From positions 1-38,355 of the forward strand of contig PHAD01000012.1 of assembly GCA_002841595.1 (NCBI GenBank): DNA of 38,355 bases, in the 5' to 3' direction. A program made the translations under genes and the position numbers. The notes beneath the pieces are model-generated. The model had not been told where the DNA came from and ran no database searches. It saw only the letters and a program-made list of their open reading frames with translations. The DNA comes from Firmicutes bacterium HGW-Firmicutes-12 (lineage in GTDB: Bacteria; Bacillota; Peptococcia; DRI-13; PHAD01). Below are positions 10,803-33,637 of the stretch, one piece after another (positions within the stretch are counted from its first letter, which is position 1; each line of letters opens with the position of its first letter).

Positions 10803-10808
10803 AACTCT

Positions 10809-15520: not shown

Positions 15521-15575
15521 CAATCTTATGCTACGTAAAACTTCCTACTATAAAACCTATATAAGGAGAAAAAAT

Positions 15576-16649: not shown

Positions 16650-16656
16650 GAATACG

Positions 16657-16706: not shown

Positions 16707-16789
16707 ATCTCATTTAACTACTTATCTGATCATTTCTGCATTATCTAATTATTACAATATGATAAGCTAAGTTATCAACAAGTGTAGAT

Positions 16790-17269: not shown

Positions 17270-17282
17270 AATCAACCCTCCT

Positions 17283-17507: not shown

Positions 17508-17524
17508 CTTAAAAAACCTCCTTA

Positions 17525-19725: not shown

Positions 19726-19800
19726 GCTGATGTAGCTCAGTGGCAGAGCAGCTGATTCGTAATCAGCAGGTCAGGGGTTCAAATCCCCCCATCAGCTCCA
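19726..19800 (+). tRNA. tRNA-Thr (anticodon CGU)
   Basis: Full cloverleaf: acceptor GCTGATG (19726-19732) pairs with CATCAGC (19790-19796). The D arm is GCTC/GAGC. The anticodon arm is GCTGA/TCAGC with loop TTCGTAA, giving anticodon CGT. The T arm is AGGGG, loop TTCAAAT, CCCCC. The discriminator is T and CCA is encoded. The first T-stem pair is an A-C mismatch (A19773 with C19789, standard positions 49-65). The 3' half is the attachment site of the element; the partial copy at 33583-33637 has G at the matching base. It reads ACG threonine codons. Confidence 0.95.
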
Positions 19801-19809
19801 TAGGATAGA
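19755..19809 (+). repeat. attL: direct repeat overlapping the tRNA 3' half
   Basis: 55 bp identical to 33583-33637 except A19773 versus G33601. It starts in the anticodon arm and runs through CCA and TAGGATAGA. The intact tRNA is on this side. Confidence 0.93.
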
Positions 19810-19814
19810 TTACT

Positions 19815-19845
19815 CCTGCAACAAATTGCAGGTTTTATTATTTTT
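19815..19845 (+). terminator. Element-borne terminator behind the tRNA
   Basis: CCTGCA (19815-19820), 6-base loop, TGCAGG (19827-19832), then TTTTATTATTTTT. It lies inside the element, six bases past attL, and so ends the host tRNA transcript with element DNA. Confidence 0.75.
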
Positions 19846-19870
19846 CCGGGCAATGCTACTCATGAGGCTT

Positions 19871-19891
19871 TTGGGTACTATTTGGGTACTA
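19871..19891. repeat. Left copy of a terminal direct repeat (candidate integrase arm site)
   Basis: Two copies of TTGGGTACTA separated by one T. The identical 21 bp recur at 33447-33467 near attR. They lie 61 bp inside attL and 115 bp inside attR respectively, positions suited to arm-type sites of a tyrosine integrase. Confidence 0.65.
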
Positions 19892-19988
19892 CGAGGTAAA
19901 AAGTACATTAAAAAAGATAAGCGGCTTTTAATGATAAGCTCTTATCTTTTTCTATTTTGCTATAACATTAGCTCATTATTGTTACCTA

Positions 19989-21056
19989 TTATATATATCT
20001 CTTTACTACTTCCATCAACTTATCTTTGTAATTATATATATCATCAATACTTGAAATATTATATTTTATTCCCTTCTTATTCTCATCAGGTATAGTAATA
20101 CTCTTCTGTTCATTTCCAATGGTAATTCTGCAAATCCATCTCCATGTATTGTTATCTAATAAAACCCCGAAGTACGATTCCGTATCCTTATATGTGATAT
20201 TGTGCTTTGGAGGGATAGCACCTTTGAGGAGGCTTTTCACTATAAAAAATCCTTCAAGTTCCTCCATGGTTGTATTTATCTTTGTTTCTACCTCTTCGTT
20301 TTCCTCAGGCATATCCTTATTGTTGTTCTCATCTTCTTTTTGCGCTTGCTTTTCCAGAGCTGCTTTTATTCTTTCATTCATAATCTCATTAATAAACTGA
20401 TTGAATGATTTCTTGACTGTATCCCTATATTTATCAATAACATTTTGCGTCTTACGACCTACAAATATTTCACTAAGTAAATATCCAACAAAGCTGTCAG
20501 TAGGATTTTCTAATTGTTGTGACAATAACTGTTTAATCTGGTTTGAATATTTTAATTCCGAAGCAGAATTAAATATTACATTCAAATCAAGTCTGCTCTT
20601 TTGAAACTTTTTAAGTTCCGAGACCAGGCTTTCTTTTATATCTAATAGATTTAATTCAAGAAAAGGTTTATTGTCCATTTTATTAGTCTCATCTAGATCT
20701 GTATAAAAACGATATATAACTCCATTAGTAAGAATAGCAAATTTAGCAGTGGTAGTTGCAAAATATCTATATAATTGAGAGTCATGTTTCTCAAGCTTCT
20801 CTCCACACCATTTTGCCTCTATAAGAATGATAGGCTTGCCGTTTTGTAAGATAGCATAATCCACTTTTTCACCCTTTTTTATACCTGTATCTGCAATAAA
20901 TTCCGGCACAAATTCATTAGGATTAAAAATGTCATAACCTAATAGTTGAAAAAAGGGCAATATCAATGATGTTTTAGTCGCTTCTTCCGTCTTAATTTGG
21001 TCAATAAGTTTATCAATTCTTGTTGAAAAACTCCTAAGCTCATCTTGAAATTCCAT
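19989..21056 (-). CDS. HsdR-N-type nuclease-domain protein (PD-(D/E)XK)
   Basis: 355 residues. Residues about 25-165 match the N-terminal domain of type I restriction HsdR-like proteins (HSDR_N/HSDR_N_2): 'TKTSLILPFFQLLGYDIFNPNEFVPEF', then the nuclease core 'KVDYAILQNGKPIILIEAKW' giving D66, E80 and K82 of the D-ExK site, then 'QLYRYFATTTAKFAILTNGVIYRFYTDLD'. A Lys/Glu-rich linker at about 225-260 precedes an unrecognised C-terminal domain of about 90 residues. No helicase, methylase or specificity gene is nearby, so it is not a complete type I system. AGGAGG precedes the ATG. It is the leftmost gene of the element and downstream of the HEPN-like gene, which suggests defence or cargo function. 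Confidence 0.8.
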   Translation of the reverse strand: MEFQDELRSFSTRIDKLIDQIKTEEATKTSLILPFFQLLGYDIFNPNEFVPEFIADTGIKKGEKVDYAILQNGKPIILIEAKWCGEKLEKHDSQLYRYFATTTAKFAILTNGVIYRFYTDLDETNKMDNKPFLELNLLDIKESLVSELKKFQKSRLDLNVIFNSASELKYSNQIKQLLSQQLENPTDSFVGYLLSEIFVGRKTQNVIDKYRDTVKKSFNQFINEIMNERIKAALEKQAQKEDENNNKDMPEENEEVETKINTTMEELEGFFIVKSLLKGAIPPKHNITYKDTESYFGVLLDNNTWRWICRITIGNEQKSITIPDENKKGIKYNISSIDDIYNYKDKLMEVVKRYI

Positions 21057-21179
21057 CTTAATTCCTCCTTAAACTTACAATCAGTCTTTGCTATATTTGG
21101 TGCGCGCACCCCAAACCCTTGCCCCACACACCTATATGGGAACACATAGTTAACCAAAGTACAACATCCCCTAGTTTTA

Positions 21180-21797
21180 CTAGATTGGATCTCCAGATAA
21201 GTAATCATCTACAATATGATAAATAAAATCAAAAACTTCATATAATTCATCAAGTACAGATTTGAGATTTTTATAGTCCACAAATTCATTCTCGGTAAAA
21301 TATAGTTTTCCTTTCTTGTCCATCAAATAACGCCAAACATCAGCTTTATTATCTATACCTTGTAATTCAATTAATAAATGTTTTATTTCATCAAAGTCGA
21401 TATTATTTGTCGTGTATTTGCGAAACGACTCCTTCTTATATTCTTTTACTCCTTCAATAAATGAATTACTATTGAATGCATCAATTACTTCGGCTTTTAT
21501 AATATCAAACAACTTGAGCAGATCATGATTCGCATCAGGTATTTTCCCATAAAACCGAAAATAAATATGCTTTAGACTAAGCTCTAAAGAATGTCTGTAA
21601 CAGAAAATTATGGGGAAAATGTATGTATCAAGCGTTTTTATATCTCCCTTAGACCCTTGAAATAAAGCTATGTCTACAAGATTATCGGCTGCTTCCTTAT
21701 ATCCTTCTCTGAGGCCAAACAATGATAAATCCCCGTCTTGCCACCCGTAATATGCTCGTGAGTCCGGATTATTTCCTTTAATAAAGACCTTCTTCAA
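21180..21797 (-). CDS. HEPN-like helical protein, possible defence component
   Basis: 205 residues from the TTG at 21797, which has GAGGAG eight bases upstream; the GTG three codons earlier overlaps that site. It is mainly helical. 'FCYRHSLELSLKHIYFRF' (Arg68, His77) and 'NHDLLKLFDII' (Asn90, His91) match the pattern of a large group of uncharacterised HEPN-like proteins with the R-H-x-x-E-L-x-L-K signature. A ribonuclease motif (Rx4-6H) is not exact, so catalysis is unproven. It shares direction with the nuclease-domain gene 123 bp downstream and has its own upstream element at 21853-21886. Confidence 0.6.
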   Translation of the reverse strand: MKKVFIKGNNPDSRAYYGWQDGDLSLFGLREGYKEAADNLVDIALFQGSKGDIKTLDTYIFPIIFCYRHSLELSLKHIYFRFYGKIPDANHDLLKLFDIIKAEVIDAFNSNSFIEGVKEYKKESFRKYTTNNIDFDEIKHLLIELQGIDNKADVWRYLMDKKGKLYFTENEFVDYKNLKSVLDELYEVFDFIYHIVDDYLSGDPI

Positions 21798-21852
21798 ATC
21801 ATTCACTCCTCAATGCATACAGCACTATATATGAGTTTCTATGGTTTTTATA

Positions 21853-21886
21853 AATCTCCTTCGGGGAAAAGGTCGAACTATGTCGA
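21853..21886 (-). promoter_or_regulatory. 34-nt upstream element, copy 1, with tandem Spo0A-box-like repeats
   Basis: 30 of 34 bases match 24046-24079. On the plus strand it carries AATCTCCTTCGGGGAAAA, then GGTCGAA, CTA, TGTCGAA (7+3+7; the last A is 21887). Tandem 0A boxes with ten-base periodicity have that layout. It lies 55-90 bases upstream of the HEPN-like gene. Confidence 0.45.
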
Positions 21887-22002
21887 ATGAAAGATAATTA
21901 TCAGAACAAAACAAAAGATCCCCTTTTTCAGGTGTATAGATATATTATCAGGAGTATTAAATTGATCTAACCATGTGAAACTCAAAATTTAATTAGAATT
22001 TT

Positions 22003-22040
22003 CCATAAAAAAAGAGGCTGGCTTCCCGACCTCTTTTATG
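22003..22040 (-). terminator. Terminator of the excisionase/106-residue operon
   Basis: Minus strand: AAAAGAGG (22037-22030), a 12-base loop, CCTCTTTT (22017-22010), then more T to 22005. It sits directly behind the stop at 22044. Confidence 0.8.
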
Positions 22041-22043
22041 TAG

Positions 22044-22364
22044 TCAGCTTAGTACTCTATTTTGCTTCACATCAGGATCAAATCCCATATTCATGCATTC
22101 TGTAACTCCATCAATTATCCCTTGTTTATATGCTTTTTCTGCAAGAAAAATGTAATATGCAGTATCATCTATCTCAAATTCCAAAGCTTCCTTTGATTTC
22201 TCATTGCTCAAACCGGTCCTCAATGTTTCAAGCTTTATACAGCTATCTTTGTAAAGACGCTTCCCTTTAAAAGTTCTTCTTGCTTCTTCAAAAATAGCTT
22301 CACATCTATCCATTATAAACACTTTATAAGTATTTTCTTCCTTAGAGTTATGAGTAGTTTTCAT
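22044..22364 (-). CDS. Hypothetical element protein, 106 residues
   Basis: Not recognised with confidence. Helical and charged, with a pattern of 'EFEIDDTAYYIFLAEKAYKQGIIDGVTECMNMG' near the C-terminus that recalls small phage/ICE proteins of the DUF6809 type. Its ATG overlaps the stop of the excisionase-like gene as TAATG, so the two are translationally coupled. A terminator follows directly. Confidence 0.6.
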   Translation of the reverse strand: MKTTHNSKEENTYKVFIMDRCEAIFEEARRTFKGKRLYKDSCIKLETLRTGLSNEKSKEALEFEIDDTAYYIFLAEKAYKQGIIDGVTECMNMGFDPDVKQNRVLS

Positions 22365-22585
22365 TAATACTTCCCCTCCTCATCTCTAATTCTTTGAATA
22401 CGGTTTTCCCACCATTCATGGAACTCCTTAGCCGGTATAGCTACTCGTCCTTCTATATGTACATATGGTATCTTTTTTTGCCTGATCATTTCGTAAATAT
22501 TACTTCTTGATAAAGTAGTCATATGTGCGATTTCAGGTACAGAATAAGCTATTTTAGGTACATTCAATTCTTTTTTCTTTGTCAT
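22364..22585 (-). CDS. Excisionase-like helix-turn-helix protein
   Basis: Start at ATG 22585 with AGAAGGGG upstream; 73 residues. 'YSVPEIAHMTTLSRSNIYEMIRQKKIPYVHIEGRVAIPAKEFHEWWENR' is the MerR-like winged helix of the excisionase/HTH_17 family. It may bend attachment-site DNA as a recombination directionality factor, or be a regulator. Coupled to the 106-residue gene. A second excisionase-like protein lies just upstream at 22742-22912. Confidence 0.8.
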   Translation of the reverse strand: MTKKKELNVPKIAYSVPEIAHMTTLSRSNIYEMIRQKKIPYVHIEGRVAIPAKEFHEWWENRIQRIRDEEGKY

Positions 22586-22741
22586 ATTAAAACCCCTTCT
22601 TTTGTTATACTTTTTGTTATACTTTGGTGTCACTTTTAGTTGCCGAAGGGATTTTATTATGATATCTTTAATGTAAGAGTAATCCCTTCGGGATTTTTCA
22701 TGTATAAGGAAGCTAATTCTCTTGGTCGGGGAGTAGCTTTC

Positions 22742-22912
22742 TTATTCTTTTTCCTTGTCTTTTAACCACTTTAAAACCACATCCTTTTCAAACCTAACTT
22801 GTCTGCCGACTTGTAAAAATGGCATTCCCTCCTTTCTCCAGCGATATGATGTCATAACACTGATTTTAAGCCATTTACATAGTTCCTCTTGAGTTATTAA
22901 CTCTGATGACAT
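22742..22912 (-). CDS. Second small excisionase-like HTH protein (56 residues)
   Basis: ATG at 22912, stop at 22742; GGAGG is at 22923-22919, six bases upstream. The protein reads MSSELITQEELCKWLKISV then 'MTSYRWRKEGMPFLQVGRQVRFEKDVVLKWLKD', a HTH_17-type fold (LTQEEL..WLxI, W..R..GMP, VGRQVRF). It is too short for routine gene calling. Its presence next to another excisionase-like gene makes the true excisionase uncertain. Confidence 0.8.
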   Translation of the reverse strand: MSSELITQEELCKWLKISVMTSYRWRKEGMPFLQVGRQVRFEKDVVLKWLKDKEKE

Positions 22913-23038
22913 TATCTACCTCCTTTTCTAATTTCTAATCTATCATAGCACAACATTACATAACATTCAAGATGCATATTACTCAATGTATTATTTGCTG
23001 ATAAAATCAACCTTTTTCTTTAAATTCACCTAACAAAA

Positions 23039-23066
23039 ACGCTTCTTAGGATGTCCTATGAAGCGA
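23039..23066 (-). terminator. Terminator after the 92-residue membrane protein
   Basis: Minus strand: CGCTTC (23065-23060), inner AGGA/TCCT, GAAGCG (23045-23040), then TTTTTGTT. It lies 50 bp beyond the stop at 23116. Confidence 0.7.
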
Positions 23067-23115
23067 TAAAACTAGTGTAATAATGGTGTCTTAACTATTT
23101 CAAATACGACCTGAG

Positions 23116-23394
23116 CTAAAACGTTCCTGATTTTTTACATAAAATAGTATATTCCTTTTGGATCACATCGTATCTTTTTATTGTTAGACCGATGCTAAAT
23201 AGTATTAATCCAATTATAAACGGTATTATTGTAAATTTACTTGTAGCTTCTTTAGTAACCATATCTATTGTTGATATTGAATTAAAATAAATACCCGCTA
23301 AAAGAAATACCCAACGAAGCCATTTTATAATAGTTAATATAGGCCTGCCTATGCAACCAACAATTAAACCTTCTATGTTATAGAGTAAATCCAT
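23116..23394 (-). CDS. Small two-helix membrane protein
   Basis: 92 residues from ATG 23394, which has GGGAG eight bases upstream; the GTG three codons earlier would overlap that site. Two hydrophobic segments: about 20-40 ('IIKWLRWVFLLAGIYF') and about 56-74 ('FTIIPFIIGLILFSIGL'). No recognised domain. It lies between YjcQ and the excisionase-like genes and has a terminator behind it. Confidence 0.55.
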   Translation of the reverse strand: MDLLYNIEGLIVGCIGRPILTIIKWLRWVFLLAGIYFNSISTIDMVTKEATSKFTIIPFIIGLILFSIGLTIKRYDVIQKEYTILCKKSGTF

Positions 23395-23536
23395 AATTAT
23401 CACTCCCGCTTCTCAAAATGTTTTAAATTGCAGTGGGAATGCCTCTATACTTTATAGCCTAACTCCGTACTTCTTATCAACACTTCTTGTATCTTTAAAC
23501 TACATTTATTTTGCAATTAGTATAACAACCATTCCA

Positions 23537-23929
23537 TTATGGCTTATTCATCTCGGCTAAAGTCTTTGCAGCTATATCTTTTATCTGCTCCCATCCCCAT
23601 TCAGCAGCAGATCCCACAATTTTTTTGACCTTTTCTTTTCCTGTTAAACTTTTCTCAATTTTTAATTTTTCTTCAACATATTGTATACCATAAGCAGTCA
23701 TCTTTATTCTATCAGTCCATACCACTAATGGAATTGTACTATTTCCATTTTTACTGTATTTAACATTACTAATAAGCATTTCGTTATCTAGTTTTTCGAT
23801 AGCTATCATAAATACATCATGATTTAATCCAAGAACATCTGCTCTTATACTTTTTTTCATATCAGGTAAGTCTTTTTGATATTCTGTATAAATTGCCATT
23901 AACACTCTTTGCTTTGCATCTAATTCCAT
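23537..23929 (-). CDS. YjcQ-family phage-type protein
   Basis: 130 residues from ATG 23929 with AGGGGGG upstream. 'QRVLMAIYTEYQKDLPDMKKSIRADVLGLNHDVFMIAIEKLDNEMLI' matches the winged-helix-like YjcQ family, followed by 'MTAYGIQYVEEKLKIEKSLTGKEKVKKIV'. The family is common in Firmicute prophages and has no proven role. A terminator-shaped hairpin and several operator-like palindromes lie in its leader, so its expression is probably controlled. Confidence 0.7.
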   Translation of the reverse strand: MELDAKQRVLMAIYTEYQKDLPDMKKSIRADVLGLNHDVFMIAIEKLDNEMLISNVKYSKNGNSTIPLVVWTDRIKMTAYGIQYVEEKLKIEKSLTGKEKVKKIVGSAAEWGWEQIKDIAAKTLAEMNKP

Positions 23930-23972
23930 TTTATCCCCCCTTAAAAACTCTTCATTACGCAATGAAAAATAA

Positions 23973-24001
23973 AAGCTACTGCCGTTTCCGGTAAGTAGCT
24001 T
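23973..24001 (-). terminator. Terminator-shaped hairpin in the yjcQ leader (possible attenuator)
   Basis: Minus strand: AAGCTACTT, CCG, GAAA tetraloop, CGG, C, AGTAGCTT, then TTATTTTT. It ends about 35 bases before the yjcQ ribosome site and has no gene immediately upstream on that strand, which points to attenuation. Confidence 0.6.
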
Positions 24002-24045
24002 GATTTATGCATGCAGCATTAATATTTCATTCTATAAATTTCATT

Positions 24046-24079
24046 AATCTCCTTTGGGGAAAAAGTCGAATGATGTCGA
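24046..24079 (-). promoter_or_regulatory. 34-nt upstream element, copy 2, with tandem Spo0A-box-like repeats
   Basis: Same layout as copy 1: AATCTCCTTTGGGGAAAA, then AGTCGAA, TGA, TGTCGA(T). Four differences from 21853-21886. It lies about 120-150 bases upstream of the YjcQ start. Confidence 0.45.
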
Positions 24080-24382
24080 TGAAATTATTTTTCTTTACTA
24101 GTGTTTAACACACTACAAGCAAACGTAGTGATATCAAGCAAAGTCGTGTTTAACACTGTACTTCCTAAAATAATAAATAATGCTATGGAATATAAAAATT
24201 CCTTCACTAAAATTATTTAAATAAAATTCCTTTTGGTGGCCCACTTCCTTATAGCATTCCTTTTTCCCTATACCCTTTTCTCCAAACAAAAATTGCGCCA
24301 AAAGAGGCGCTGGATAAGCTAATTCACACGTTTACATGCCTTTATACCGTATGAATATTGATGACTGTACGTATTATTTCTC

Positions 24383-24754
24383 CTAATGGATGTATGATTT
24401 GACGTATGAACCTATATCTAACTGACTGCAATTGTAAATATAAGATAACCTTAATATATACTCTTCTCGTAGTCTATTGCAATAATCCACTCTATCCTGA
24501 AATGCTACATCCTGCTTGTCTAGTTCCTCCTGCAAAGCTATATTAGCAGACCAAACAAATCGTTTCCATAGGTCGCTATTAAGCGATACCCCTCTTTTTG
24601 TCCAATCCTGTTTTTTATCTTCTAGATAATTTGCATATGCATTTCGTATATTAGCCTTAGATGCATCAATATTTACCTTGTCTTTTGCTAGCTGTTCACG
24701 GATGATATTATCGATTTGTATAGCTATACTCTTCATCTTTGCTATTTCCGCCAT
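24383..24754 (-). CDS. Hypothetical element protein, 123 residues
   Basis: Not recognised. Predominantly helical and charged, with 'RNAYANYLEDKKQDWTKRG' and 'VDYCNRLREEYILRLSYIYN'. It overlaps the end of the upstream 236-residue gene by 47 bp, so the two are probably coupled. An ATG six codons in is an alternative start with a better-placed purine-rich site. Position next to a Gp27/TerS-like protein hints at a packaging or virion-related role, but nothing in the sequence proves it. Confidence 0.55.
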   Translation of the reverse strand: MAEIAKMKSIAIQIDNIIREQLAKDKVNIDASKANIRNAYANYLEDKKQDWTKRGVSLNSDLWKRFVWSANIALQEELDKQDVAFQDRVDYCNRLREEYILRLSYIYNCSQLDIGSYVKSYIH

Positions 24755-25418
24755 TATATATATTTTGCTGCTCTACTATCTTAGCCATGCGCGGGTCTTT
24801 TGCTATTCGCTGCAATGCTGCCTTATATACCTCTTCTCCGGCTTCTTCCCTAATGTTTTCCAGTAACCGCCTTATAAACTCCTGGATCAATCCATATTCG
24901 TATATTTTCTCTTGAAGCTTAGTAAGAAACTCATTATTGGACCTGACTTCCTTGTTGATGGTAGCCAGATCGTCAAGCTGTTTACTGAACTCTTTGCGCA
25001 CATATTTAAAATATCCGTCGACAAGTGATACCATCTCATCGGATTCTGCATCTTTTAGGATATTTTCTATCCGCTTGAAATACTCCTCGGCCAGCTCCGG
25101 TAAGTGCTCTAACTCATCCATCTGCTCAAACATCTTTTTGCTGACCTTGAGCTGCGATTGGATGATGTCATAATTAGCTGTAACGGTTTTAACAATCCTT
25201 GATTTGCTTTGTTTGATTATAGCTGCTTGCCTAGCAGGTAACCGATTAAAGTATCTTGATATTGCCATAGCGGATATTTTATCTTTGATACCCTGTTCCT
25301 TAAGGTTATCGCTACACTTTGTTGCTATATCAACGCATGAGATTTTCTTGTTTTTCTGACGTAACTCAGCTATAAGCGGCTCTAAGCTATATTTTTCGAT
25401 TTTACCTTCTGGAGGCAT
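24708..25418 (-). CDS. Long helical protein with N-terminal HTH (Gp27 / small-terminase-like, tentative)
   Basis: 236 residues. GGAG is seven bases before the ATG. Residues about 10-60 ('LEPLIAELRQKNKKISCVDIATKCSDNL', 'ISAMAISRYFNRLPAR') look like a helix-turn-helix followed by a linker, the plan of phage Gp27/DUF3486 and some small terminase subunits. Residues about 65-215 are nearly all helix with strong charge patterns ('LEHLPELAEEYFKRIENILKDAE', 'FIRRLLENIREEAGEEVYKAAL'), suggesting coiled-coil oligomers. If it is a TerS-like protein it would redirect a helper phage's packaging motor, as in PICIs. Other possibilities are a partition or regulatory protein. Confidence 0.5.
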   Translation of the reverse strand: MPPEGKIEKYSLEPLIAELRQKNKKISCVDIATKCSDNLKEQGIKDKISAMAISRYFNRLPARQAAIIKQSKSRIVKTVTANYDIIQSQLKVSKKMFEQMDELEHLPELAEEYFKRIENILKDAESDEMVSLVDGYFKYVRKEFSKQLDDLATINKEVRSNNEFLTKLQEKIYEYGLIQEFIRRLLENIREEAGEEVYKAALQRIAKDPRMAKIVEQQNIYNGGNSKDEEYSYTNR

Positions 25419-25574
25419 GTTAACACTCCTTTTAGATTAATATTCAATATAACACAAAATTTTTATATTTAATGTGTTACAGAAAATTTGGCTTCCATCT
25501 AAATTGTCATAACGTTAAAACCAAAATGTAATGATAGGTGTTTATTACTTAGTTGCACCTACACCACCGCTTTC

Positions 25575-26807
25575 TTACTTTGTCGTTCCTACTCCGTACA
25601 TCCACTCATACCATGGCCGTTCCTGCATATCTTTCAACATGGCCTCTCCTGCTAATTGATTGGCCGTCTTTGTAGTAGTATTAGTATTAGTTATCGCACC
25701 AGCCTTGTAGATAGTGTCGACAATCTTAATCAGATCAGATAGCGTAACATTATTTCCGAATTTGCTGTAATTCTTATAAATAAAATCCTTGACATCATCA
25801 GCAGATATGCCGTCCTGTTTCATCTGATATATCTCAGAAGTCGCCTGGTTTATAACCTCATTTTTAGTCTGTGTGGTCGTTGACTTAATAACAGTCCCAT
25901 CATTCGCTTTCTGCGTCTGTTGTTTTGCTTCTAATGTTGGCTCTCCGTTATACATGCCAGTTATCTCAGCTTCTTTGTATTTAGATAACGCCTGCTCAAG
26001 CTCATAATTTTTATTCTTAAGCTCTTGATCTGCCTGGCTTTCCTCATAAGCTTGCTTCATACCGAATAGTGACATCAAATTACTAATATTGGACTGGTTT
26101 TCCTTATATATTCTATCTGCTTCCACTTCAGCATTGGACTGATCTACCTGCATTAAATCCTGGGCAGCACTGGCTATAGCACTTTGTTTTTGAGCCTCAT
26201 AAGAACCTAATTTTTCTCCAAGCCGGCTTAATAGAAGCGGACCAGTGATACCGGATTTTTCTGCTTGTATTTTAAGCTGCCGCTGAAGCTCATTCGCTCC
26301 CTGGTCATATAGTGGATTATAACGATCTTGAGCCATTTTAGTAGCATCCTCGTAGGAGAGGTTATTCTTACCTGTAGTAGGTTGACTATAAGCTGACATT
26401 ATTACATTTCTTAATTGTTCCCACGGGTCCTGAGTAGCACCAATTACACCCACACTACCAACTCCACTACCTAATGCATACGATTGCCCGTCATAGGTAA
26501 AATACTGGCCCCCCTGCTGATCTGTTTCAAGTGTGCCACCATACGGATTGTTCTCATCAGCTATTCTATACTGCTGTCCATTTGACACGTACCATTGTGA
26601 GCCATCATCCTCATTCTTAATAGTGCCACCATAAGTAGGAGTATTGACAGTGCCGCCGCTAGATACGTTACTGCTTGTAGTTGTCTTGCCTGCTGTTTGC
26701 GAGGCCATTGAGGTAAGTTGAACACTAGGGTTTCTGGCCTGCACTAATTTAGCTTGATCTTCATCATACGTTGCTCCGGTCACAGGGTTTTTATAATAAG
26801 TTGCCAT
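25575..26807 (-). CDS. Internal-virion / ejection-protein-like protein with two Tyr/Gly-rich repeats
   Basis: 410 residues from ATG 26807, with GGAGG eight bases upstream. After 'YYKNPVTGATYDEDQAKL' and a Ser/Thr-rich linker, two related about 30-residue repeats occur: 'YGGTIKNEDDGSQWYVSNG' and 'YGGTLETDQQGGQYFTYDG' (each followed by QQYRI or QSYAL). Residues about 150-280 ('SYEDATKMAQDRYNPLYDQ', 'SGITGPLLLSRLGEKLGSYEAQKQSAIASAA') match, from memory, the helical pattern of internal or head-tail-junction proteins in Firmicute phages. The C-terminus has Thr/Asn-rich linkers and ends 'WYEWMYGVGTTK'. No signal peptide. It is the only structural-like gene in the element. Confidence 0.55.
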   Translation of the reverse strand: MATYYKNPVTGATYDEDQAKLVQARNPSVQLTSMASQTAGKTTTSSNVSSGGTVNTPTYGGTIKNEDDGSQWYVSNGQQYRIADENNPYGGTLETDQQGGQYFTYDGQSYALGSGVGSVGVIGATQDPWEQLRNVIMSAYSQPTTGKNNLSYEDATKMAQDRYNPLYDQGANELQRQLKIQAEKSGITGPLLLSRLGEKLGSYEAQKQSAIASAAQDLMQVDQSNAEVEADRIYKENQSNISNLMSLFGMKQAYEESQADQELKNKNYELEQALSKYKEAEITGMYNGEPTLEAKQQTQKANDGTVIKSTTTQTKNEVINQATSEIYQMKQDGISADDVKDFIYKNYSKFGNNVTLSDLIKIVDTIYKAGAITNTNTTTKTANQLAGEAMLKDMQERPWYEWMYGVGTTK

Positions 26808-26835
26808 ATTAAGCACCTCCATGCTTATTTATTAT

Positions 26836-27561
26836 TCATCTATTATTAAATAATCGATTTTCAATATTGACTATATTTAATACTGTTCTTTCTGTACTTG
26901 ATGTGTGTGTCAACCTAAAGTTTAAAAGCCCTGTTCCACAATATGAAGTTGCTTCCCAATAGTCGTTCGTCCATTCACGCCAGACATGTAATAATAACCT
27001 ATTCATCCTGTCACGCCCTAGCCTTAATTCTTTTTTAACTTCTTTGACTGTCATTCCAAAAGCCAACGCAAGCTCACTAGTTGAACACTCATATCCATAG
27101 TGTTGTTCTGTTAAACAAGCTCGTCTTTCCGGAAGCTTGCTTAACGCTTGATCCAACTTAGCCCTTAAATATTCTATCTCCACACCCCTAGCCGAATCTT
27201 CTATATTAGGGTCTTGTACACTATCTATGCGTTCTTTAGTATTACCTTCTCCATCCTCAAACGGTTCATTAAGTGTTAGAGCTTCTTTGCATCCATGATA
27301 ACGCCTATATCTTTGTAGATGCCTGATTAAAACCTTTCCAAAGTAACTACTAAACATATATCCTCTTTCATAATCATATCCAGCAGCGGCCTTAATGATT
27401 GCAAAAAATGCTTCCTGTTCAAAATCTTCGAACTCTTTCTCGTCAGCCGCCACACTGTTACATATCTTCTTTATCAAACCTAAATTATTCTGATAGAGCT
27501 TTAACACTGCTGTCTTATCACCTGTTTTCGCCCTTTTAACAAGCTGTTCATTATCACCCAT
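26836..27561 (-). CDS. Sigma-70-family RNA polymerase sigma factor of the element
   Basis: 241 residues from ATG 27561 (nine bases from GGGAGGGGG; the ATG two codons earlier is too close). Region 2 is at about 30-95: 'DFEQEAFFAIIKAAAGYDYERGYMFSSYFGKVLIRHLQRYRR'. Region 4 is at about 140-190: 'LDQALSKLPERRACLTEQHYGY' and the HTH 'STSELALAFGMTVKEVKKELRLGRDRM'. No region 1.1 or 3 is evident. A tail of about 50 residues ('GTGLLNFRLTHTSSTERTVL') resembles the tails of prophage sigma factors. It sits between replication genes and virion/packaging-like genes, the place of a late-gene activator. It could drive the genes at 24383-26807 or a helper's promoters. Confidence 0.85.
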   Translation of the reverse strand: MGDNEQLVKRAKTGDKTAVLKLYQNNLGLIKKICNSVAADEKEFEDFEQEAFFAIIKAAAGYDYERGYMFSSYFGKVLIRHLQRYRRYHGCKEALTLNEPFEDGEGNTKERIDSVQDPNIEDSARGVEIEYLRAKLDQALSKLPERRACLTEQHYGYECSTSELALAFGMTVKEVKKELRLGRDRMNRLLLHVWREWTNDYWEATSYCGTGLLNFRLTHTSSTERTVLNIVNIENRLFNNR

Positions 27562-27622
27562 TGCCATCCCCCTCCCAAGCACGTTATAATTAACGTGAGC
27601 AGGCCCGAAAGGGGTCTTTTTT
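27562..27622 (-). promoter_or_regulatory. Palindrome and possible ribosome-site-masking leader of the sigma gene
   Basis: The palindrome CACGTTATAATTAACGTG (27580-27597) lies just upstream of the sigma ribosome site GGGAGGGGG. Further upstream in the transcript, CCCCUUUC (27614-27607) can pair with GGGAGGGG around the palindrome stem (six canonical and two G-U pairs), or alternatively form a local CCC-UUUC-GGG stem. Confidence 0.35.
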
Positions 27623-28372
27623 TTATGAAGTTTTGTTTCGCCAGCTTTTGCCTTCTAATTTAACTAACTTACACATTTCCCTCAGTCGATCAGCTGTGCG
27701 CTCTCCAATTCGCTCGGTATGTTCAGCGGGCGCAAAGTTCGAAGTTATAATTACAGGCAGCTCGCGCTCATATCGAAAATTAATTAGCGTAAATAACCGT
27801 TCCAGGGCAAATTCCGTTGAGCGTTCTGCCCCTAAATCATCTAGAACCAAAATAAAGCTATTTCGCATTTTATTCTCATTATTAACGGTACATCCTTTTC
27901 CATTAAAACTTTCGCGTATTTCATTCAAAAGATCTGGTACAGAAATCATAAAGCCGGCTAAGCCTCTGCTGTAAGCAATTTTAAGGATTGCTGCCGCTAA
28001 GTGTGTCTTACCTGTTCCAGGTCGACCATATAAAAGTAAGCCATCGTTTGAAAAAGGATTAAGCCGACTTGCATATTGTTTGCAGATTTCATATGCTTCC
28101 CTATTCTCCGCTGTGACCTCAAAGTTATTAAAGTCTCGGTCTCTCCACTTGCCATTTACAGCTCCTTTTAATTGTCGCTCATTTTCGTTAGATAATAAGT
28201 GCTGGCACTTCCCCCATGATGCTTCCGCATTTTCGCCGTACATTTCAATTGCCTCGTTACTTGGAGGATAAGGCCGCCATCCTTTGGTAGGCATACTGCA
28301 ATATTCAAGTCCTGAGCAAATTGGGCATTGCTTGTCTGCTAAAAGCAAGATACTCGAAGTTACATTATTCAT
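27623..28372 (-). CDS. DnaC/IstB-like AAA+ helicase loader
   Basis: 249 residues. Walker A 'LLYGRPGTGKTHLAAAIL' (about 113-130), Walker B 'FILVLDDLGAERSTEF' (about 172-187), sensor-1-like 'VIITSNFAPAE' and sensor-2-like 'ERTADRLREM'. An N-terminal region with 'CPICSGLEYC' may bind zinc, as in several DnaC-type loaders. Expected to load the host DnaB-type helicase at an origin opened by the upstream replication protein. GAGGTGAAAT precedes the ATG; the gap to the O-type gene is 12 bp, so they form one operon. Confidence 0.88.
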   Translation of the reverse strand: MNNVTSSILLLADKQCPICSGLEYCSMPTKGWRPYPPSNEAIEMYGENAEASWGKCQHLLSNENERQLKGAVNGKWRDRDFNNFEVTAENREAYEICKQYASRLNPFSNDGLLLYGRPGTGKTHLAAAILKIAYSRGLAGFMISVPDLLNEIRESFNGKGCTVNNENKMRNSFILVLDDLGAERSTEFALERLFTLINFRYERELPVIITSNFAPAEHTERIGERTADRLREMCKLVKLEGKSWRNKTS

Positions 28373-28384
28373 ATTTCACCTCAC

Positions 28385-29137
28385 TCAATCTATTGCCCAT
28401 TCATCTCGGTATCCATTGATAGGTTCAATCTCATTGGTAATTATGTAATCCAAAAATGGCTTGTTTGGACCTAAAAATGTAGATCCATGCTTAATATACT
28501 TATACTCTGTTTTACTCCGTTTGCACTCTGCAGCATAGGTTTGGGCTGCTTTGATTATACTTTCGGGTTGCTCCCCTTCCTTAAGCCGAGTGTTCCAGGC
28601 CTTAAAGGCAGCAATCTTTTCAACTTTACGGGGATAAAATGACCAAAACTTTTCAAAATCATCTTTATATATTATTTCTTTAGATTTTGTTTTAAATCTT
28701 TTTTCTTGGTGGTCTTTTTCGACCGCTGTTTTTTGTCTAATTAGACCACTCATTTCGGTCTTATCAGACCTATGGTCTAGTTTATCCTCTGGTCCGTTTC
28801 GACCACTATTCTTTTTAGACCACTGTTCATAATTTTTATTAAACGCAAGTTTCCGGGACGTATTTTTTGTTGGTTTCTCAATCTCTTGAATTATTCCAAG
28901 CTCGATAAGTGTTTTTAATTCTCTTCTAACCTGTTTATTTTGACTCGTATTTAATCCTAAGGCTCTCATCAAAAAGGTAATAGAAAACTCATGATTTTTT
29001 CGATTAAACCCGTAACAATATCTCCAAATAGTGAGAATAATTCTCATTTGGGTTCCATTTAGCGGCCACTTCACAAGTTGTTCTATGATCTCATTCGCGA
29101 CAGGTGTATACCCGTTTTCCTTCTGTGGGTTTGCCAT
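28385..29137 (-). CDS. Phage O-type replication initiator / replisome organiser
   Basis: 250 residues from ATG 29137. Residues about 5-105 form the winged-helix Phage_rep_O domain: 'GYTPVANEIIEQLVKWPLNGTQMRIILTIWRYCYGFNRKNHEFSITFLMRALGL'. A charged linker follows at about 105-160. The C-terminal region 'FEKFWSFYPRKVEKIAAFKAWNTRLKEG' to 'FLGPNKPFLDYI' is the short domain seen at the end of many phage replisome proteins and probably contacts the helicase loader. Together with the DnaC-like gene it gives the element its own replication start. The origin probably lies in or near this gene; no clear iterons were found by eye. Confidence 0.85.
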   Translation of the reverse strand: MANPQKENGYTPVANEIIEQLVKWPLNGTQMRIILTIWRYCYGFNRKNHEFSITFLMRALGLNTSQNKQVRRELKTLIELGIIQEIEKPTKNTSRKLAFNKNYEQWSKKNSGRNGPEDKLDHRSDKTEMSGLIRQKTAVEKDHQEKRFKTKSKEIIYKDDFEKFWSFYPRKVEKIAAFKAWNTRLKEGEQPESIIKAAQTYAAECKRSKTEYKYIKHGSTFLGPNKPFLDYIITNEIEPINGYRDEWAID

Positions 29138-29157
29138 AAATTCCACGCTCCCCACAA

Positions 29158-29397
29158 TCAGCCATGAATTTTTCTTAATTCACCATAGGTCTTTTGAGGC
29201 TCATCAGTTTTCACGCTCTCCTCCATACTCTTTTTGAGATGTGCATTGAGCAAATCAATGTCGAAGAGAATTTTTCCTCTTTTTGAGTTTCCTACACGAA
29301 CATGTGGATACCTTCCTGATTTTGCACCTGTTCTTAATTCATGCGCAGAAAGACCAGTAACTTTAGCAGCCTGTTTCAAGGTAACAACGCTCGCCAT
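29158..29397 (-). CDS. Small HTH DNA-binding protein (excisionase/HTH_17-like)
   Basis: 79 residues from ATG 29397, with AAGGGGGC six bases upstream. 'VTLKQAAKVTGLSAHELRTGAKSGRYPHVRVGNSKRGKILFDIDLLNAHL' is an excisionase-like winged helix with a Gly/Lys-rich wing. It overlaps the Cro-like gene by 35 bp and is the second gene of the early operon, so it could be a regulator or the excisionase. It ends 20 bp before the O-type replication gene's start. Confidence 0.75.
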   Translation of the reverse strand: MASVVTLKQAAKVTGLSAHELRTGAKSGRYPHVRVGNSKRGKILFDIDLLNAHLKKSMEESVKTDEPQKTYGELRKIHG

Positions 29398-29617
29398 ACT
29401 CAAGCCCCCTTTCTTTAGCCACCTCGAACACATCATCAAATGTGCATCCCAAACTCTCTGTAATAGCTTTTGCGGTTGGAGCCGAAACACTTCTTTTTCC
29501 CATCAGTAATTGGGAAACGTAGCCTTGGGTAACTCCTATTTTTTTTGAAAAGGCCGCCTGGGTCAATCCCGCCTTGAGGATTAATCTTTTAAGATCCCTG
29601 GTTTTTACTGTAATCAT
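29363..29617 (-). CDS. Cro-like XRE-family regulator
   Basis: 84 residues from ATG 29617 (GGGGG eight bases upstream). HTH_3 fold: 'LKRLILKAGLTQAAFSKKIGVTQGYVSQLLMGKRSVSAPTAKAITESLGCTFDDVF'. It is the first leftward gene from the switch and divergent from the longer repressor, the place of Cro in lambda-like switches. Its start codon lies within operator-like motif 1 (29610-29626). Confidence 0.85.
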   Translation of the reverse strand: MITVKTRDLKRLILKAGLTQAAFSKKIGVTQGYVSQLLMGKRSVSAPTAKAITESLGCTFDDVFEVAKERGLEYGERCYLETGC

Positions 29618-29662
29618 TATTATCACCCCCATGATTTAATTTATCACCATCGCCTCAAGGCA

Positions 29663-29691
29663 ATTATACTGTGATAAATTTTATTACTCAA
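29663..29691 (-). promoter_or_regulatory. Leftward early promoter
   Basis: Minus-strand TTGAGT (29691-29686), 17-bp spacer, TATAAT (29668-29663). The operator-like copy at 29671-29687 fills its spacer, so binding would block it. Confidence 0.7.
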
Positions 29692-29704
29692 GTAAAACTA
29701 TTCT

Positions 29705-29733
29705 TTGACATAATATTACTAGGGTGATATAAT
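29705..29733 (+). promoter_or_regulatory. Rightward repressor-integrase promoter
   Basis: TTGACA (29705-29710), 17-bp spacer, TATAAT (29728-29733), a perfect consensus. The operator-like copy at 29724-29740 covers the -10 box, consistent with autorepression. Confidence 0.85.
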
Positions 29734-29774
29734 TTATTACGGGAATAAGACTATACGATAAGGATGAAGAACGT

Positions 29775-30473
29775 ATGAATCAATTTAATAATTCAAAGGT
29801 ATCAAAAAGGTTGAAGGAACTAAGGGAAAGCCAAAATTGGTCCCAGAGTGAACTAGGCGAAAAACTAAATGCGATTCTAAAGGACACCATGAACCTTGAG
29901 GGAGAAAACGGAAAGCAAACCGTTTCACAATTAGAAAGAGGTCGTAAAATTACAATCGAAATAGCCTTTGCTTATGCAAATATTTTCGGCAAGTCTGTTG
30001 ATTTTATTTTAGGGAGATCGGATGAGTGGCAACCAGAATATAAAGATGTAAAAGAGCTGACTGGACTTACTGATGAATCGATAGAGTCTCTTAAAAAAGC
30101 TAACGAATCACTGAAAATCCCTTTAACTAGAACAGTAAACGCACTTATTCAGGAAGGTAAAACACTTTCTATGATTTCTCGTTATTTGTTTTATGAGCCA
30201 CAGTCCCATCTTAGAAACATCAATAACACTGATGCGGAATTTTGTCAGCCAATATATATGGTCCGCCCCAAAAATCCTAATGAATTTCAAAAGTTTAAAG
30301 ATCACTTAAACGCCATAGACTGCCCTCTTCCACCTAATTTTGAAGGACCTATTTTTGAAACAGATACCTATTCAATAAACAGAGATCAGATTAAAAACAT
30401 TATTCTCTTAGAAATACAGGTTGCTTTAAAAAACATGCTAACCGAAATGAATACACGAAAGGGCGGTGAATAA
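29775..30473 (+). CDS. C-repressor-like XRE-family regulator
   Basis: 232 residues. The HTH_3 domain is at about 8-80: 'SKRLKELRESQNWSQSELGEKLN', a longer loop, then 'QTVSQLERGRKITIEIAFAYANIFGKSVDFILGRSD'. The C-terminal about 150 residues are not recognised. There is no visible LexA-type Ser-Lys autoprotease signature and no ImmA-like metalloprotease gene beside it, so induction is probably not by simple RecA-driven cleavage. In PICIs the equivalent repressor is released by helper-phage proteins; that would fit but is inference. It is co-transcribed with the integrase (2 bp gap). Confidence 0.85.
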   Translation: MNQFNNSKVSKRLKELRESQNWSQSELGEKLNAILKDTMNLEGENGKQTVSQLERGRKITIEIAFAYANIFGKSVDFILGRSDEWQPEYKDVKELTGLTDESIESLKKANESLKIPLTRTVNALIQEGKTLSMISRYLFYEPQSHLRNINNTDAEFCQPIYMVRPKNPNEFQKFKDHLNAIDCPLPPNFEGPIFETDTYSINRDQIKNIILLEIQVALKNMLTEMNTRKGGE

Positions 30474-30475
30474 TA

Positions 30476-31870
30476 ATGGCATCCATCGAGCACCGCGGAG
30501 AAAACTCTTACCGAATAACCGTGTCAGCCGGCTATGATAGTGAAGGTAAAAAAATTCCTAAAAGAAAGACTGTAAAGCTTGATCCGAAACTGACTACAAA
30601 ACAGAAAGAAAAGGAGCTTCTGCGCCAGGCTGCAGAATTTGAATTAGAGGTTGAACGCGGTACCTACCTGAACGGTGGAAAAATCACATTTGCCGAATTT
30701 GCAGACCGCTGGGTCCGTGAATATGCTGAAAGAGAACTTGCTCCTAAGACCGTTCATGGATATAAATACCTTCTTAAACGCATCCTTCCGGCCATGGGTC
30801 ATATTAAGCTCAGTAAATTACAACCGGTACACTTAATGGAGTTCTATTCAAATCTGAAAGAGCTAACCCGGGACGATACAAAATACATCGCGCTGCCTGA
30901 ATTGGCAAAGTTAATAAGCGATAGCAACATAAACAAAAAAGAACTAGCTGATAAATGCAAAATCAACACGCGTACTATCAACAGCATTCTAAAAGGAAAT
31001 GCTACAACAGAGCCTATCGCAACGGCCTTAAGTATATGTCTTGATAATAAAATAAAGAACCTTTTTACACCTAAAAGCCAACCATCTCCATTATCTGATG
31101 AGCTTATAAAACATCATCACCGGCTAATCAGCTCCATCTTGACCAGTGCCGTTCAGTGGCAGTGTATTATAAGCAATCCGGCTGAACGAGTGAAACCCCC
31201 ACGAGTAGATAAAAAAGAAGCTGCCCATTATGATGAGACAGTAGCAGAAAGGATGCTAATGCTCCTTGATAATGAACAGCTTAAATATAAAACTATGATA
31301 TATATCACTATCTACTCCGGTTGCCGTTTAGGGGAACTGTCCGGCCTAGAATGGTCTGACGTGGACTTCGAAAACAACTTACTACGCTTTCGTCAAGCTT
31401 CTCAATATATTCCCGGGCAAGGTACATTCACTAAGGCCCCTAAGAATGATAGCAGTATAAGGGTTATTTCTATGCCTCTGGTGGCTATGTCATTGCTTAG
31501 GCAATACAGAGTATGGCAGAATGAAGAACGTCTCAAGTGCGGCGATTTATGGCAGGATCATGACCGATTATTTACGCAGTTGAATGGTCTGCCAATTCAT
31601 CCCTCCACTCCATCGAAATGGTTTAGTTCATTTAGACAAAAATATGGCCTTCCTGACCTTAAATTTCACGGTTTAAGGCATACTAATGCAACTCTTCTTA
31701 TAGGTGAAGGTGTTGATCCTCAGACTGTTGCTAAACGCCTTGGGCACGCCAAGACTACCACCACAACAACAGTATATTCACACTTCTTGAGGAAACCCGA
31801 CCAGGGAGCAGTGGCTAAACTGGAAAACCTTTTTGGGAAAAATAAAAAGGATGAGAGTAAAAAGGCATAA
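30476..31870 (+). CDS. Tyrosine integrase with an inserted XRE-type HTH
   Basis: 464 residues, about 60 longer than typical. An AP2-like arm-binding domain lies at about 1-65 and a core-binding SAM-like domain at about 70-245. That domain is interrupted at about 138-198 by an XRE-like HTH: 'ALPELAKLISDSNINKKELADK' and 'INTRTINSILKGNATTEPIATALSICL'. The catalytic domain has R284 (SGCRLGE), a Lys near 320-323, H398-x-x-R401 (HGLRHTNATLL), H424 (LGHAKTT) and Y434 (TVYSHF), all expected residues. It integrates the element at tRNA-Thr. The start follows GGCGGTG; the gene is co-transcribed with the repressor. Confidence 0.95.
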   Translation: MASIEHRGENSYRITVSAGYDSEGKKIPKRKTVKLDPKLTTKQKEKELLRQAAEFELEVERGTYLNGGKITFAEFADRWVREYAERELAPKTVHGYKYLLKRILPAMGHIKLSKLQPVHLMEFYSNLKELTRDDTKYIALPELAKLISDSNINKKELADKCKINTRTINSILKGNATTEPIATALSICLDNKIKNLFTPKSQPSPLSDELIKHHHRLISSILTSAVQWQCIISNPAERVKPPRVDKKEAAHYDETVAERMLMLLDNEQLKYKTMIYITIYSGCRLGELSGLEWSDVDFENNLLRFRQASQYIPGQGTFTKAPKNDSSIRVISMPLVAMSLLRQYRVWQNEERLKCGDLWQDHDRLFTQLNGLPIHPSTPSKWFSSFRQKYGLPDLKFHGLRHTNATLLIGEGVDPQTVAKRLGHAKTTTTTTVYSHFLRKPDQGAVAKLENLFGKNKKDESKKA

Positions 31871-32067
31871 TAAAAATACCTAAAATATTTTGTAATATAA
31901 ATAGTTTTTCAGAATTCTAAGAAATTCTTAGCATTTAATAACATACGCTTCAATTAATGAATATATTAACTATAAACGTGGCATACTACCATAAAACACA
32001 TTTGACGTTAAGTTGACAATCGGTTACATTTAAGGTAGCTCATCTGCCATGTGTAGAAGGAGTAACA

Positions 32068-32100
32068 ATGCCGCTCTTAAAGAGCGGCATTAGCCTTTTT
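32068..32100. terminator. Hairpin inside the 3' end of the 165-residue gene
   Basis: ATGCCGCTC (32068-32076), 5-base loop, GAGCGGCAT (32082-32090), then TAGCCTTTTT on the plus strand. The last codons and stop of the leftward gene (stop 32077-32079) lie in the hairpin. The T tail suits rightward transcripts from the integrase side; leftward termination is less certain. Confidence 0.6.
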
Positions 32101-32574
32101 ATAAACTAAATATTCCTTATTTAGTTTATTTTTTTGGTGGTCTCTATCAACTATATAAGCAGTCCAAAGCAAGATATATCCTGATCGTTTAGCAAGAACA
32201 ACAAGATAATCCTTTTCAACACACCAAATAAGAATACGTTTATCCCCTTTTCTTTCGTTTTCCCATATTCTTATGTAATCACAACCACAGTTTTCTATCG
32301 ATGGCTTAGGCCATCTTATTCTTTCACATCGACGCAAGTCAGGAGTTCTCTGATCCTCGTTACTTCCTTCAGAAATTATATGCCAAAAAGTACATTCTTT
32401 ATCTTTTAGTAGTGGATGACGTTTCATCCCGATTTTTTGTCCGTTAAAACATACTTTGTTAATTATAAAATCATTTTTAAATATTTCGTATATTATAGTT
32501 AAATATTTATCCCAATTCCCGCCATATTTCTCAAATGGCTCTAGCTCAGGAAGCCATTCATAGCTTGTCTCCAT
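32077..32574 (-). CDS. Uncharacterised partner of the DUF3800 protein, 165 residues
   Basis: No named domain assigned. Distinctive conserved-looking stretches: 'VCFNGQKIGMKRHPLLKDKECTFWHIISEG', 'PDLRRCERIRWPKPSIEN', 'IRIWENERKGDKRILIWCVEKDYLVVLAKRSGYILLWTAYIVDRDHQKNKLNKEY'. From memory, small proteins with the 'LRRCERIRWP' and 'DYLVVLAKR' pattern occur in many bacterial accessory regions. The His/Asp/Arg-rich motifs could form a nuclease site, but this is a guess. Its ATG comes 4 bp after the DUF3800 stop, with GGGGGAATAG as ribosome site, so the pair is one transcriptional and translational unit. Confidence 0.6.
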   Translation of the reverse strand: METSYEWLPELEPFEKYGGNWDKYLTIIYEIFKNDFIINKVCFNGQKIGMKRHPLLKDKECTFWHIISEGSNEDQRTPDLRRCERIRWPKPSIENCGCDYIRIWENERKGDKRILIWCVEKDYLVVLAKRSGYILLWTAYIVDRDHQKNKLNKEYLVYKKANAAL

Positions 32575-32578
32575 AACT

Positions 32579-33283
32579 CTATTCCCCCTGTGCGCTCCAC
32601 CTAAACAAGTTAAATTTATTTTCTCTAAGTAAAGTAGATTTAGTTAATGAGTATCCTGTTCTAATCTTTATGCGCTTAATTATCTCAAGCTTTGCTGGGC
32701 TACTATAAAGACCTCTATTCACATAAGAAACAGCACCAATTAGTAAATCAGTTAATTGAAGAATATGTGACTCTTCCGACCTAATTAACTGTACTTTTTC
32801 TACAATACTTTGGGAGAAATCATACATGTTATTGCTTATTACTTTATGTAAAAAATGTATCCGATTTCCACCTCTGGTATCCTTAATATCCAGATATATA
32901 TGATACTTATCTTTTGGGTTAAAGATAGCTTTAAGTAAATCAAAATACATTTTATAATACCACTCATCATGGGTTTGTCCAAATAACTCATGATTTAGCT
33001 TAGATTTGTCCGGTACTATAAGCCCACGAAAATGAAGGTTCTCATTATCAAAGAAATAATCTATCACATCCAGATATAACTGTATCTGGCTAGGAGATAC
33101 TTTTGTCCATTTGATTTCAAATGAATTTTGAAAACCATTTCTTTGCTTAATCTGCTTTGTTCTTTCATGTATTTCTGAAACTTGTTCCTTAGGACACCAA
33201 ACTGCCCCTAAAACCATTGCTATCTGATTATCATTCTCTAGATGACAACTCTCATCGCAATATACATTGTATAATGTTACCAT
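32579..33283 (-). CDS. DUF3800 protein (RNase-H-like fold)
   Basis: 234 residues from ATG 33283 (GGAG eight bases upstream). DUF3800 pattern: acidic start motif 'VYCDESCH' (Asp10, Glu11), 'SFEIKWTKV', 'YYKMYFDLLKAIF', 'YHIYLDIKDTRGG' and 'ILQLTDLLIGAVSYV'. The Asp/Glu residues fit a metal-dependent RNase-H-like fold; activity is unproven. DUF3800 proteins are frequent in defence-type and mobile regions. First gene of a two-gene unit between the integrase and attR, a normal cargo position. Confidence 0.8.
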   Translation of the reverse strand: MVTLYNVYCDESCHLENDNQIAMVLGAVWCPKEQVSEIHERTKQIKQRNGFQNSFEIKWTKVSPSQIQLYLDVIDYFFDNENLHFRGLIVPDKSKLNHELFGQTHDEWYYKMYFDLLKAIFNPKDKYHIYLDIKDTRGGNRIHFLHKVISNNMYDFSQSIVEKVQLIRSEESHILQLTDLLIGAVSYVNRGLYSSPAKLEIIKRIKIRTGYSLTKSTLLRENKFNLFRWSAQGE

Positions 33284-33446
33284 AATTTGCACTCCATACG
33301 TTAGATTTACTATTTATTATTCAACAAATCGACAATTTAACCTCCCACCGTAATTAATTGTTTTCTTATTAGCTATTATTTGAAACTACATAATAAATGT
33401 ATAAGTTAAAAACTACCCATTTCTCTAAGACCGTACTTATATAAAA

Positions 33447-33467
33447 TTGGGTACTATTTGGGTACTA
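33447..33467. repeat. Right copy of the terminal direct repeat (candidate integrase arm site)
   Basis: Identical over 21 bp to 19871-19891: two TTGGGTACTA units separated by one T. Same orientation as the left copy. Confidence 0.65.
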
Positions 33468-33582
33468 TAAACAAAAGAAATGACAAATATTTACCTCAAA
33501 TCGCAACATGCATAAATGGACAAACTTATCATTACCAAGGACTAGTCCATTTTGCAAAAAGCTACAAAAAACCTAGAGCCCA

Positions 33583-33637
33583 ATTCGTAATCAGCAGGTC
33601 GGGGGTTCAAATCCCCCCATCAGCTCCATAGGATAGA
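33583..33637 (+). repeat. attR: partial tRNA-Thr copy
   Basis: Repeats the tRNA from the anticodon arm to CCA plus 9 bp, with G33601 where the intact tRNA has A19773. There is no 5' half, so it is not a functional tRNA. Confidence 0.93.

Follow-up and report, generated by a model that had tools for sequence, protein, structure and literature searches.

Phage satellites and the island in tRNA-Thr

Well-studied phage satellites take the tails of their helper phages whole, and the small terminase subunit (TerS) is the gene with which satellites of the Staphylococcus aureus pathogenicity island (SaPI) type hijack packaging. The element described here is a 13.8-kb island (19755-33637) integrated in a tRNA-Thr(CGT) gene of Firmicutes bacterium HGW-Firmicutes-12, on a 38,355-nucleotide stretch of contig PHAD01000012.1 that is called the window below. 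It is very probably a phage satellite, and the best explanation of its content as a whole is likely to be a TerS-type satellite of a podovirus. SaPIs and the other Gram-positive phage-inducible chromosomal islands (PICIs) with TerS are alike in size, in having a specific attachment (att) site, their own replication and their own TerS, in lacking capsid genes, in placing the integrase gene (int) beside the repressor gene and divergent from the rest, and in carrying accessory genes beside int and after terS (PMC6092414). They use a primase or Rep protein with a PICI origin (PMC6092414), whereas the island has an O-type initiator, a DnaC-like loader and iterons inside the initiator gene. Beyond the PICI gene set, the island encodes a sigma factor and an ejection-type protein, and its TerS family is unrelated to the named families.

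The PICI-like elements (PLEs) of Vibrio, which have been shown to incorporate a tape measure protein of their own into chimeric tails (Mathur et al., 2026; PMC12987554), resemble the island in bringing their own version of a protein that guides DNA delivery and in taking the remaining virion from the helper. Their helper is a lytic long-tailed phage, they bring tape measure, chaperone and hub proteins, and incorporation into virions has been shown for them (PMC12987554), whereas the affinities of the island are with a short-tailed phage, and its contribution is an ejection-type protein, TerS and a sigma factor, with incorporation predicted. The tape measure protein encoded by PLE11 (PMC12987554) is the closest precedent, and the island would be its short-tailed counterpart if the ejection-type assignment holds. 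Similarly, tmp genes have been seen in other putative satellites (Mathur et al., 2026; PMC12987554), and relatives of tail-assembly genes of the helper occur in the Pseudomonas satellite AH14b (PMC4936722). Capsid-forming PICIs (cf-PICIs), also satellites with some virion genes of their own, supply portal, capsid, connectors and the two terminase subunits themselves, with borrowed tails (PMC10690885), whereas the island has TerS alone of these.

The initial annotation of the window had called the layout undescribed. This stands insofar as searches of open PubMed Central papers turned up none connecting satellites to an ejection protein or to a late sigma factor, a weak negative as subscription papers and most preprints were outside their scope, but the satellite-encoded tape measure protein, which has the corresponding function in long-tailed phages, was reported in 2026 (PMC12987554). 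If the present reading is true, a satellite fitted to podoviruses and encoding an ejection-type protein would make the takeover of DNA delivery a general strategy, independent of tail type.

The small terminase subunit and the ejection-type protein

The 236-residue protein (24708..25418, - strand), earlier described as a helix-turn-helix (HTH) plus coiled-coil protein, is genuine and almost certainly represents TerS, given homologues that adjoin the large terminase. It belongs to no named Pfam or PHROGs family, and weak Pfam matches to the T7 capsid assembly protein and DUF445 were dismissed as coiled-coil noise. Direct searches with the 415-, 236-, 248- and 123-residue island proteins, run variously against IMG/VR, GTDB contigs, INPHARED and PLSDB, gave nothing before a single relative of the 236-residue protein in the genome G233 (E 7e-30, 31% identity), whose gene overlaps the start of the large terminase gene and is followed by portal, capsid and tail sheath. 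A two-sequence profile of the island and G233 proteins recovered relatives in IMG/VR, each with the large terminase directly after it. The closest, at locus L112, is 46% identical over 228 residues, and an alignment of 14 sequences, some from loci closely related to each other, has 28-47% identity to the island protein and 25 invariant columns. The phages that hold these relatives have several tail types. In a structure model, the protein consists of an N-terminal HTH and long helices (pTM 0.31), and a PDB search returned weak HTH matches, none of them significant. The assignment strengthens the satellite reading; some PICIs likewise carry terS. Since the family matches no named Pfam or PHROGs family, profile-based finders would miss satellites that carry it, and the present alignment offers a means of detecting further ones.

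The 415-residue protein (25575..26822, - strand; 415 residues from the first ATG, 410 from an internal ATG) had been labelled virion-internal-like, and this is borne out by its relation to a podovirus-type prophage protein at the ejection position, with an N-terminal domain 37-44% identical. Residues 17-167 match part of a 416-residue prophage protein in G001, a genome of the island host's order (37% identity, E 2e-25), and the run DGSxWYVSNGQQYRIADE is nearly identical between the two. The G001 gene follows those for the capsid and the internal virion protein (phrog_511) and precedes a gene for 3015 residues, which we take to be the place of ejection proteins in podoviruses. At the matching place, the podophage at IMG/VR locus L120 has a 399-residue protein weakly similar to the 415-residue protein, including the motif TGxYxGxPT. 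The same podophage carries a TerS relative, so both genes of the island could stem from a single phage lineage. Judged from position and homology, it is an even call whether the 415-residue protein would enter particles.

The G001 podovirus-type prophage (L008/L009) shares with the island a DnaC (53% identity over 230 residues) and the N-terminal domain of the 415-residue protein. It differs in being a full phage, with large terminase, portal, capsid and the 3015-residue gene, in having a TerS of another family, and in that no sigma factor with regions 2 and 4 was found in it. A phrog_156 portal is common to L112, L120 and this prophage, and the phrog_1357 capsid type to L120 and G001. Between the capsid and ejection-type genes of the G001 prophage lies a 439-residue frame made up mostly of MNAVAASATA repeats (L008:17690-19009), and directly after the ejection-type gene lies the 3015-residue frame (L008:4359-13406), whose product is probably a large injected protein. 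A match to the 415-residue protein in G350 fell inside a DNA polymerase III-like gene and was set aside as chance, and a degenerate pattern for YNPLYDQG matched unrelated contigs only.

Sigma factor and proposed late gene control

The gene upstream of the 415-residue gene encodes a 248-residue factor of the sigma-70 family with regions 2 and 4 (26836..27582, - strand; Pfam; phrog_351 2e-22; TIGR02937 2e-19). It is separated from the 415-residue gene by 13 bp, with terS 156 bp further on. The run continues with a gene for 123 residues (24383..24754, - strand) that overlaps the end of terS, has no family and is the last gene before a terminator-like hairpin (24310-24295), which ends the 415-TerS-123 series. 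In L120, a sigma-like gene sits just upstream of terS. Most of the matches to the factor in other genomes were factors of a housekeeping or sporulation-like kind that matched over region 2 alone. On this arrangement, the factor is rather likely to be the island's own late activator driving the 415-TerS-123 genes, which would let the satellite time packaging without the activator of the helper.

A course of events can be proposed. Upon infection by, or induction of, a related short-tailed phage, CI would cease to repress, and the island would excise and replicate from its O/DnaC origin. The sigma factor, placed where the late activators of such phages sit, would then turn on the 415-TerS-123 genes. 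TerS would direct the helper large terminase to satellite DNA, with which helper capsids would be filled, and the 415-residue protein would be built into the particles, replacing the helper ejection protein or standing beside it, and would serve the delivery of satellite DNA.

In the 420-bp gap downstream of the 123-residue gene, the palindrome-like GTGTTTAACAC occurs in two exact copies (24101-24111 and 24146-24156) and nowhere else in the window. It could be an operator or a packaging-related site.

Integration, lysogeny switch and replication

The integration target is the tRNA-Thr (CGT) gene found by ARAGORN (19726..19800, + strand). The left att core (19755..19809, +) consists of the tRNA 3' half plus 9 bp and is repeated directly in the right att core (33583..33637, +). 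These 55-bp repeats had been called exact; they are present at both ends, but they are identical at 54 of 55 positions, with a single A/G difference. The window holds exactly two copies of the 21-bp TTGGGTACTATTTGGGTACTA, one on the inner side of each att end (19871..19891 and 33447..33467, both +), where one of its 10-bp halves alone would be expected in about 0.07 matches by chance. Arm-type integrase sites have this appearance of paired short direct repeats next to both att cores, and we infer that the two copies are such sites.

Pfam, PHROGs and NCBIfam agree with the annotated integrase, repressor/Cro switch, O-type initiator, DnaC-like loader and sigma factor. The tyrosine integrase (30476..31870, +; Pfam Phage_integrase 9e-23, phrog_1 2e-65) accompanies the specific attachment site, as in PICIs. 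It contains an extra HTH segment of the Cro/C1 type (HTH_26 9e-4, residues ~143-188) between its SAM-like and catalytic domains. The CI-type repressor (29775..30473, +; HTH_3 1e-10, phrog_8 2e-15) is encoded next to it, and the Cro-type regulator (29363..29632, -; HTH_3 6e-13) is divergent. Between them, the switch region (29632..29774) holds a promoter on each strand together with repeated sequences that are near-palindromic and operator-like. The + strand promoter is a perfect sigma-70 promoter (TTGACA-17-TATAAT, 29705-29733), and the - strand promoter agrees at 10 of 12 positions (TTGAGT-17-TATAAT, 29691-29663). CI and Int lie on the + strand, and everything from Cro through the cargo lies on the - strand, as do the cargo genes beside int. 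This is the PICI arrangement of repressor and int on one strand with the remainder divergent.

The - strand early unit comprises Cro, an excisionase/HTH-like gene, the Phage_rep_O initiator and the DnaC loader. The second of these encodes an HTH protein (29158..29490, -; phrog_66 4e-5, HTH_17 0.002) whose true start is probably downstream of that of the longest frame. Another excisionase-like HTH_17 protein is encoded at 22364..22633 (-; Pfam 5e-11, phrog_66 excisionase 1e-9), so that two HTH proteins match phrog_66, a mixed family of excisionases and regulators. A small DNA-binding protein with HTH_17 (22742..22912, -) was recognized by Pfam and PHROGs.

The O-type initiator (28385..29155, -; Pfam Phage_rep_O 3e-16; PHROGs) is 63% identical over 82 residues of its C-terminal part to a stretch in a second podovirus-type prophage of G001, and the DnaC-like helicase loader (27623..28372, -; phrog_50 8e-54) is the protein shared with the prophage described above. 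Iterons with GGTC..GACC repeats lie inside the initiator gene (28707..28831, -) and form the probable replication origin of the island. Origins of the lambda type likewise have their iterons inside the initiator gene. PICIs are characterized by a primase/Rep protein followed by an origin in which an AT-rich region is flanked by two iteron sets, and this module was not found. The PICI framing of the initial annotation therefore holds for the general layout and for terS, but the island is not strictly a PICI, since its replication module differs.

Alternative explanations

In Pfam, PHROGs, NCBIfam and PADLOC scans, no island open reading frame (ORF) matched a large terminase, portal, capsid, tail or conjugation family, in agreement with what had been reported. 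The island thus lacks capsid, portal and large terminase genes as PICIs do, with one ejection-type virion gene present. The initial proposal, a satellite to which a sigma factor and perhaps an ejection protein have been added, agrees with all findings, and TerS strengthens it. Several points nevertheless weigh against a podovirus satellite. Mobilisation of the island by a helper (excision, packaging and transfer) is what we infer; the ejection role of the 415-residue protein is based on position and one shared domain, and its C-terminal part is weakly similar to known phage proteins; the protein searches recovered no second copy of the exact island; and no helper prophage was found in the host genome, although the assembly is of draft quality, the phrog_2 scan had missed the large terminase of the G001 podovirus, and the helper could be a transient phage.

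The alternative that survives best, although somewhat unlikely, retains the satellite but keeps the 415-residue protein out of the delivering particles and has it act against the helper, for instance as a dominant-negative ejection protein. Tai systems encoded on PICIs keep helper tails from being assembled (PMC11364771) and Rta of PLE11 targets the helper tape measure protein (PMC12987554), and strong conservation limited to the N-terminal domain is what a docking part with a changed body would have. However, the island protein is full length (415 residues, against 416 and 399 in the phages) and alike in overall make-up, and the tape measure proteins of PLEs are incorporated in satellite virions (PMC12987554).

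A podovirus prophage remnant, in which structural genes were deleted and the sigma factor, TerS and one ejection-type gene were left by chance, is unlikely. All three late genes and the DnaC have relatives in podovirus-type phages, and the absence of an island copy elsewhere would suit it. In the phages, however, TerS comes first, 13.8 kb (G001) and 12.5 kb (L120) ahead of the ejection-position gene, with large terminase, portal and capsid between them, whereas in the island the order is reversed and the ejection-type gene precedes and adjoins terS. Deletion alone cannot produce this order, so the island is not a simple prophage remnant. Its genes are intact open frames in tight packing, and its att sites, switch and replication module are complete. 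The initial annotation had named full prophages, with capsid and terminase genes between 22900 and 26800, as the kind of relative that would count against a satellite; no full prophage with the layout of the island was found, and the relatives of its single genes lie in full phages with a different gene order.

That the element is an integrative defence island, carried between cells by another element or by general transduction, is highly improbable. Such an island would account for the PDC-M04 and HsdR-N nuclease genes and for the lack of a visible helper in the host genome, but library scans of the island ORFs matched no relaxase or conjugation family, and TerS and a virion-type protein would be useless outside phage packaging. 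The remaining candidates were rejected: a conjugative element because no conjugation family was matched; a full prophage by the missing large terminase, portal, capsid, tail and lysis genes; a cf-PICI by the lack of its own capsid, portal, connectors and both terminase subunits; and a P4-like satellite (P4-type primase, AlpA-type regulator, capsid-size gene) because no primase family matched and the AlpA match of an 89-residue HTH protein, at 18.3 bits, fell below the 21-bit cut-off.

Further islands with a sigma factor and a DNA-delivery protein

Searches with the sigma factor led to two further islands. The one in G188 (L134:4787-16188, 11.4 kb) encodes an integrase, a repressor, a primase, a sigma factor, an ArpU-type regulator and TerS (phrog_51), followed by a 272-residue protein, a head-tail adaptor (phrog_615), a 141-residue protein and a tape measure protein (phrog_1068), and no large terminase, portal or capsid was seen between its flanks. 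The element in G022 (L064:~10400-19000) encodes an integrase, a repressor, a sigma factor, a region-4 regulator and a lone 571-residue tape measure protein. No TerS was identified in the G022 element. Together with the tRNA-Thr island, these two suggest that the pairing of a sigma factor with a lone DNA-delivery protein recurs among satellites. It is possible, if less than probable, that all three belong to a satellite class within this branch of the Firmicutes with their own late sigma factor, their own TerS and their own DNA-delivery protein matched to the tail type of the helper, which would form chimeric particles with a satellite-owned delivery step. Within such a class, the delivery protein would be an ejection protein for short-tailed helpers and a tape measure protein for long-tailed ones; the tRNA-Thr island would be the podovirus member, and the G188 and G022 elements would be members with long-tailed helpers.

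Cargo and other genes

PICIs habitually carry accessory genes near int and beyond terS (PMC13376191; PMC6092414), and the island has cargo at both ends, as first annotated. Beside int lie the defence candidates PDC-M04B (32077..32574, -; PADLOC 8e-69) and PDC-M04A, with DUF3800 (32579..33292, -; PADLOC 1e-96; Pfam 2e-11), which are adjacent and 4 bp apart, as PADLOC defines the PDC-M04 system. Beyond terS, at the far end, lie a 355-residue nuclease of the HsdR-N type (19989..21056, -; Pfam HSDR_N 6e-16), which matches the endonuclease family phrog_4225 over its full length (2e-133), and a 208-residue protein with no family (21180..21806, -). The other genes of this part, all on the - strand, encode a 106-residue protein with no family (22044..22364), a 95-residue predicted membrane protein from a hydrophobic ORF (23116..23403) and a YjcQ-like phage protein (23537..23962; Pfam YjcQ 6e-6; phrog_3675 1e-7).

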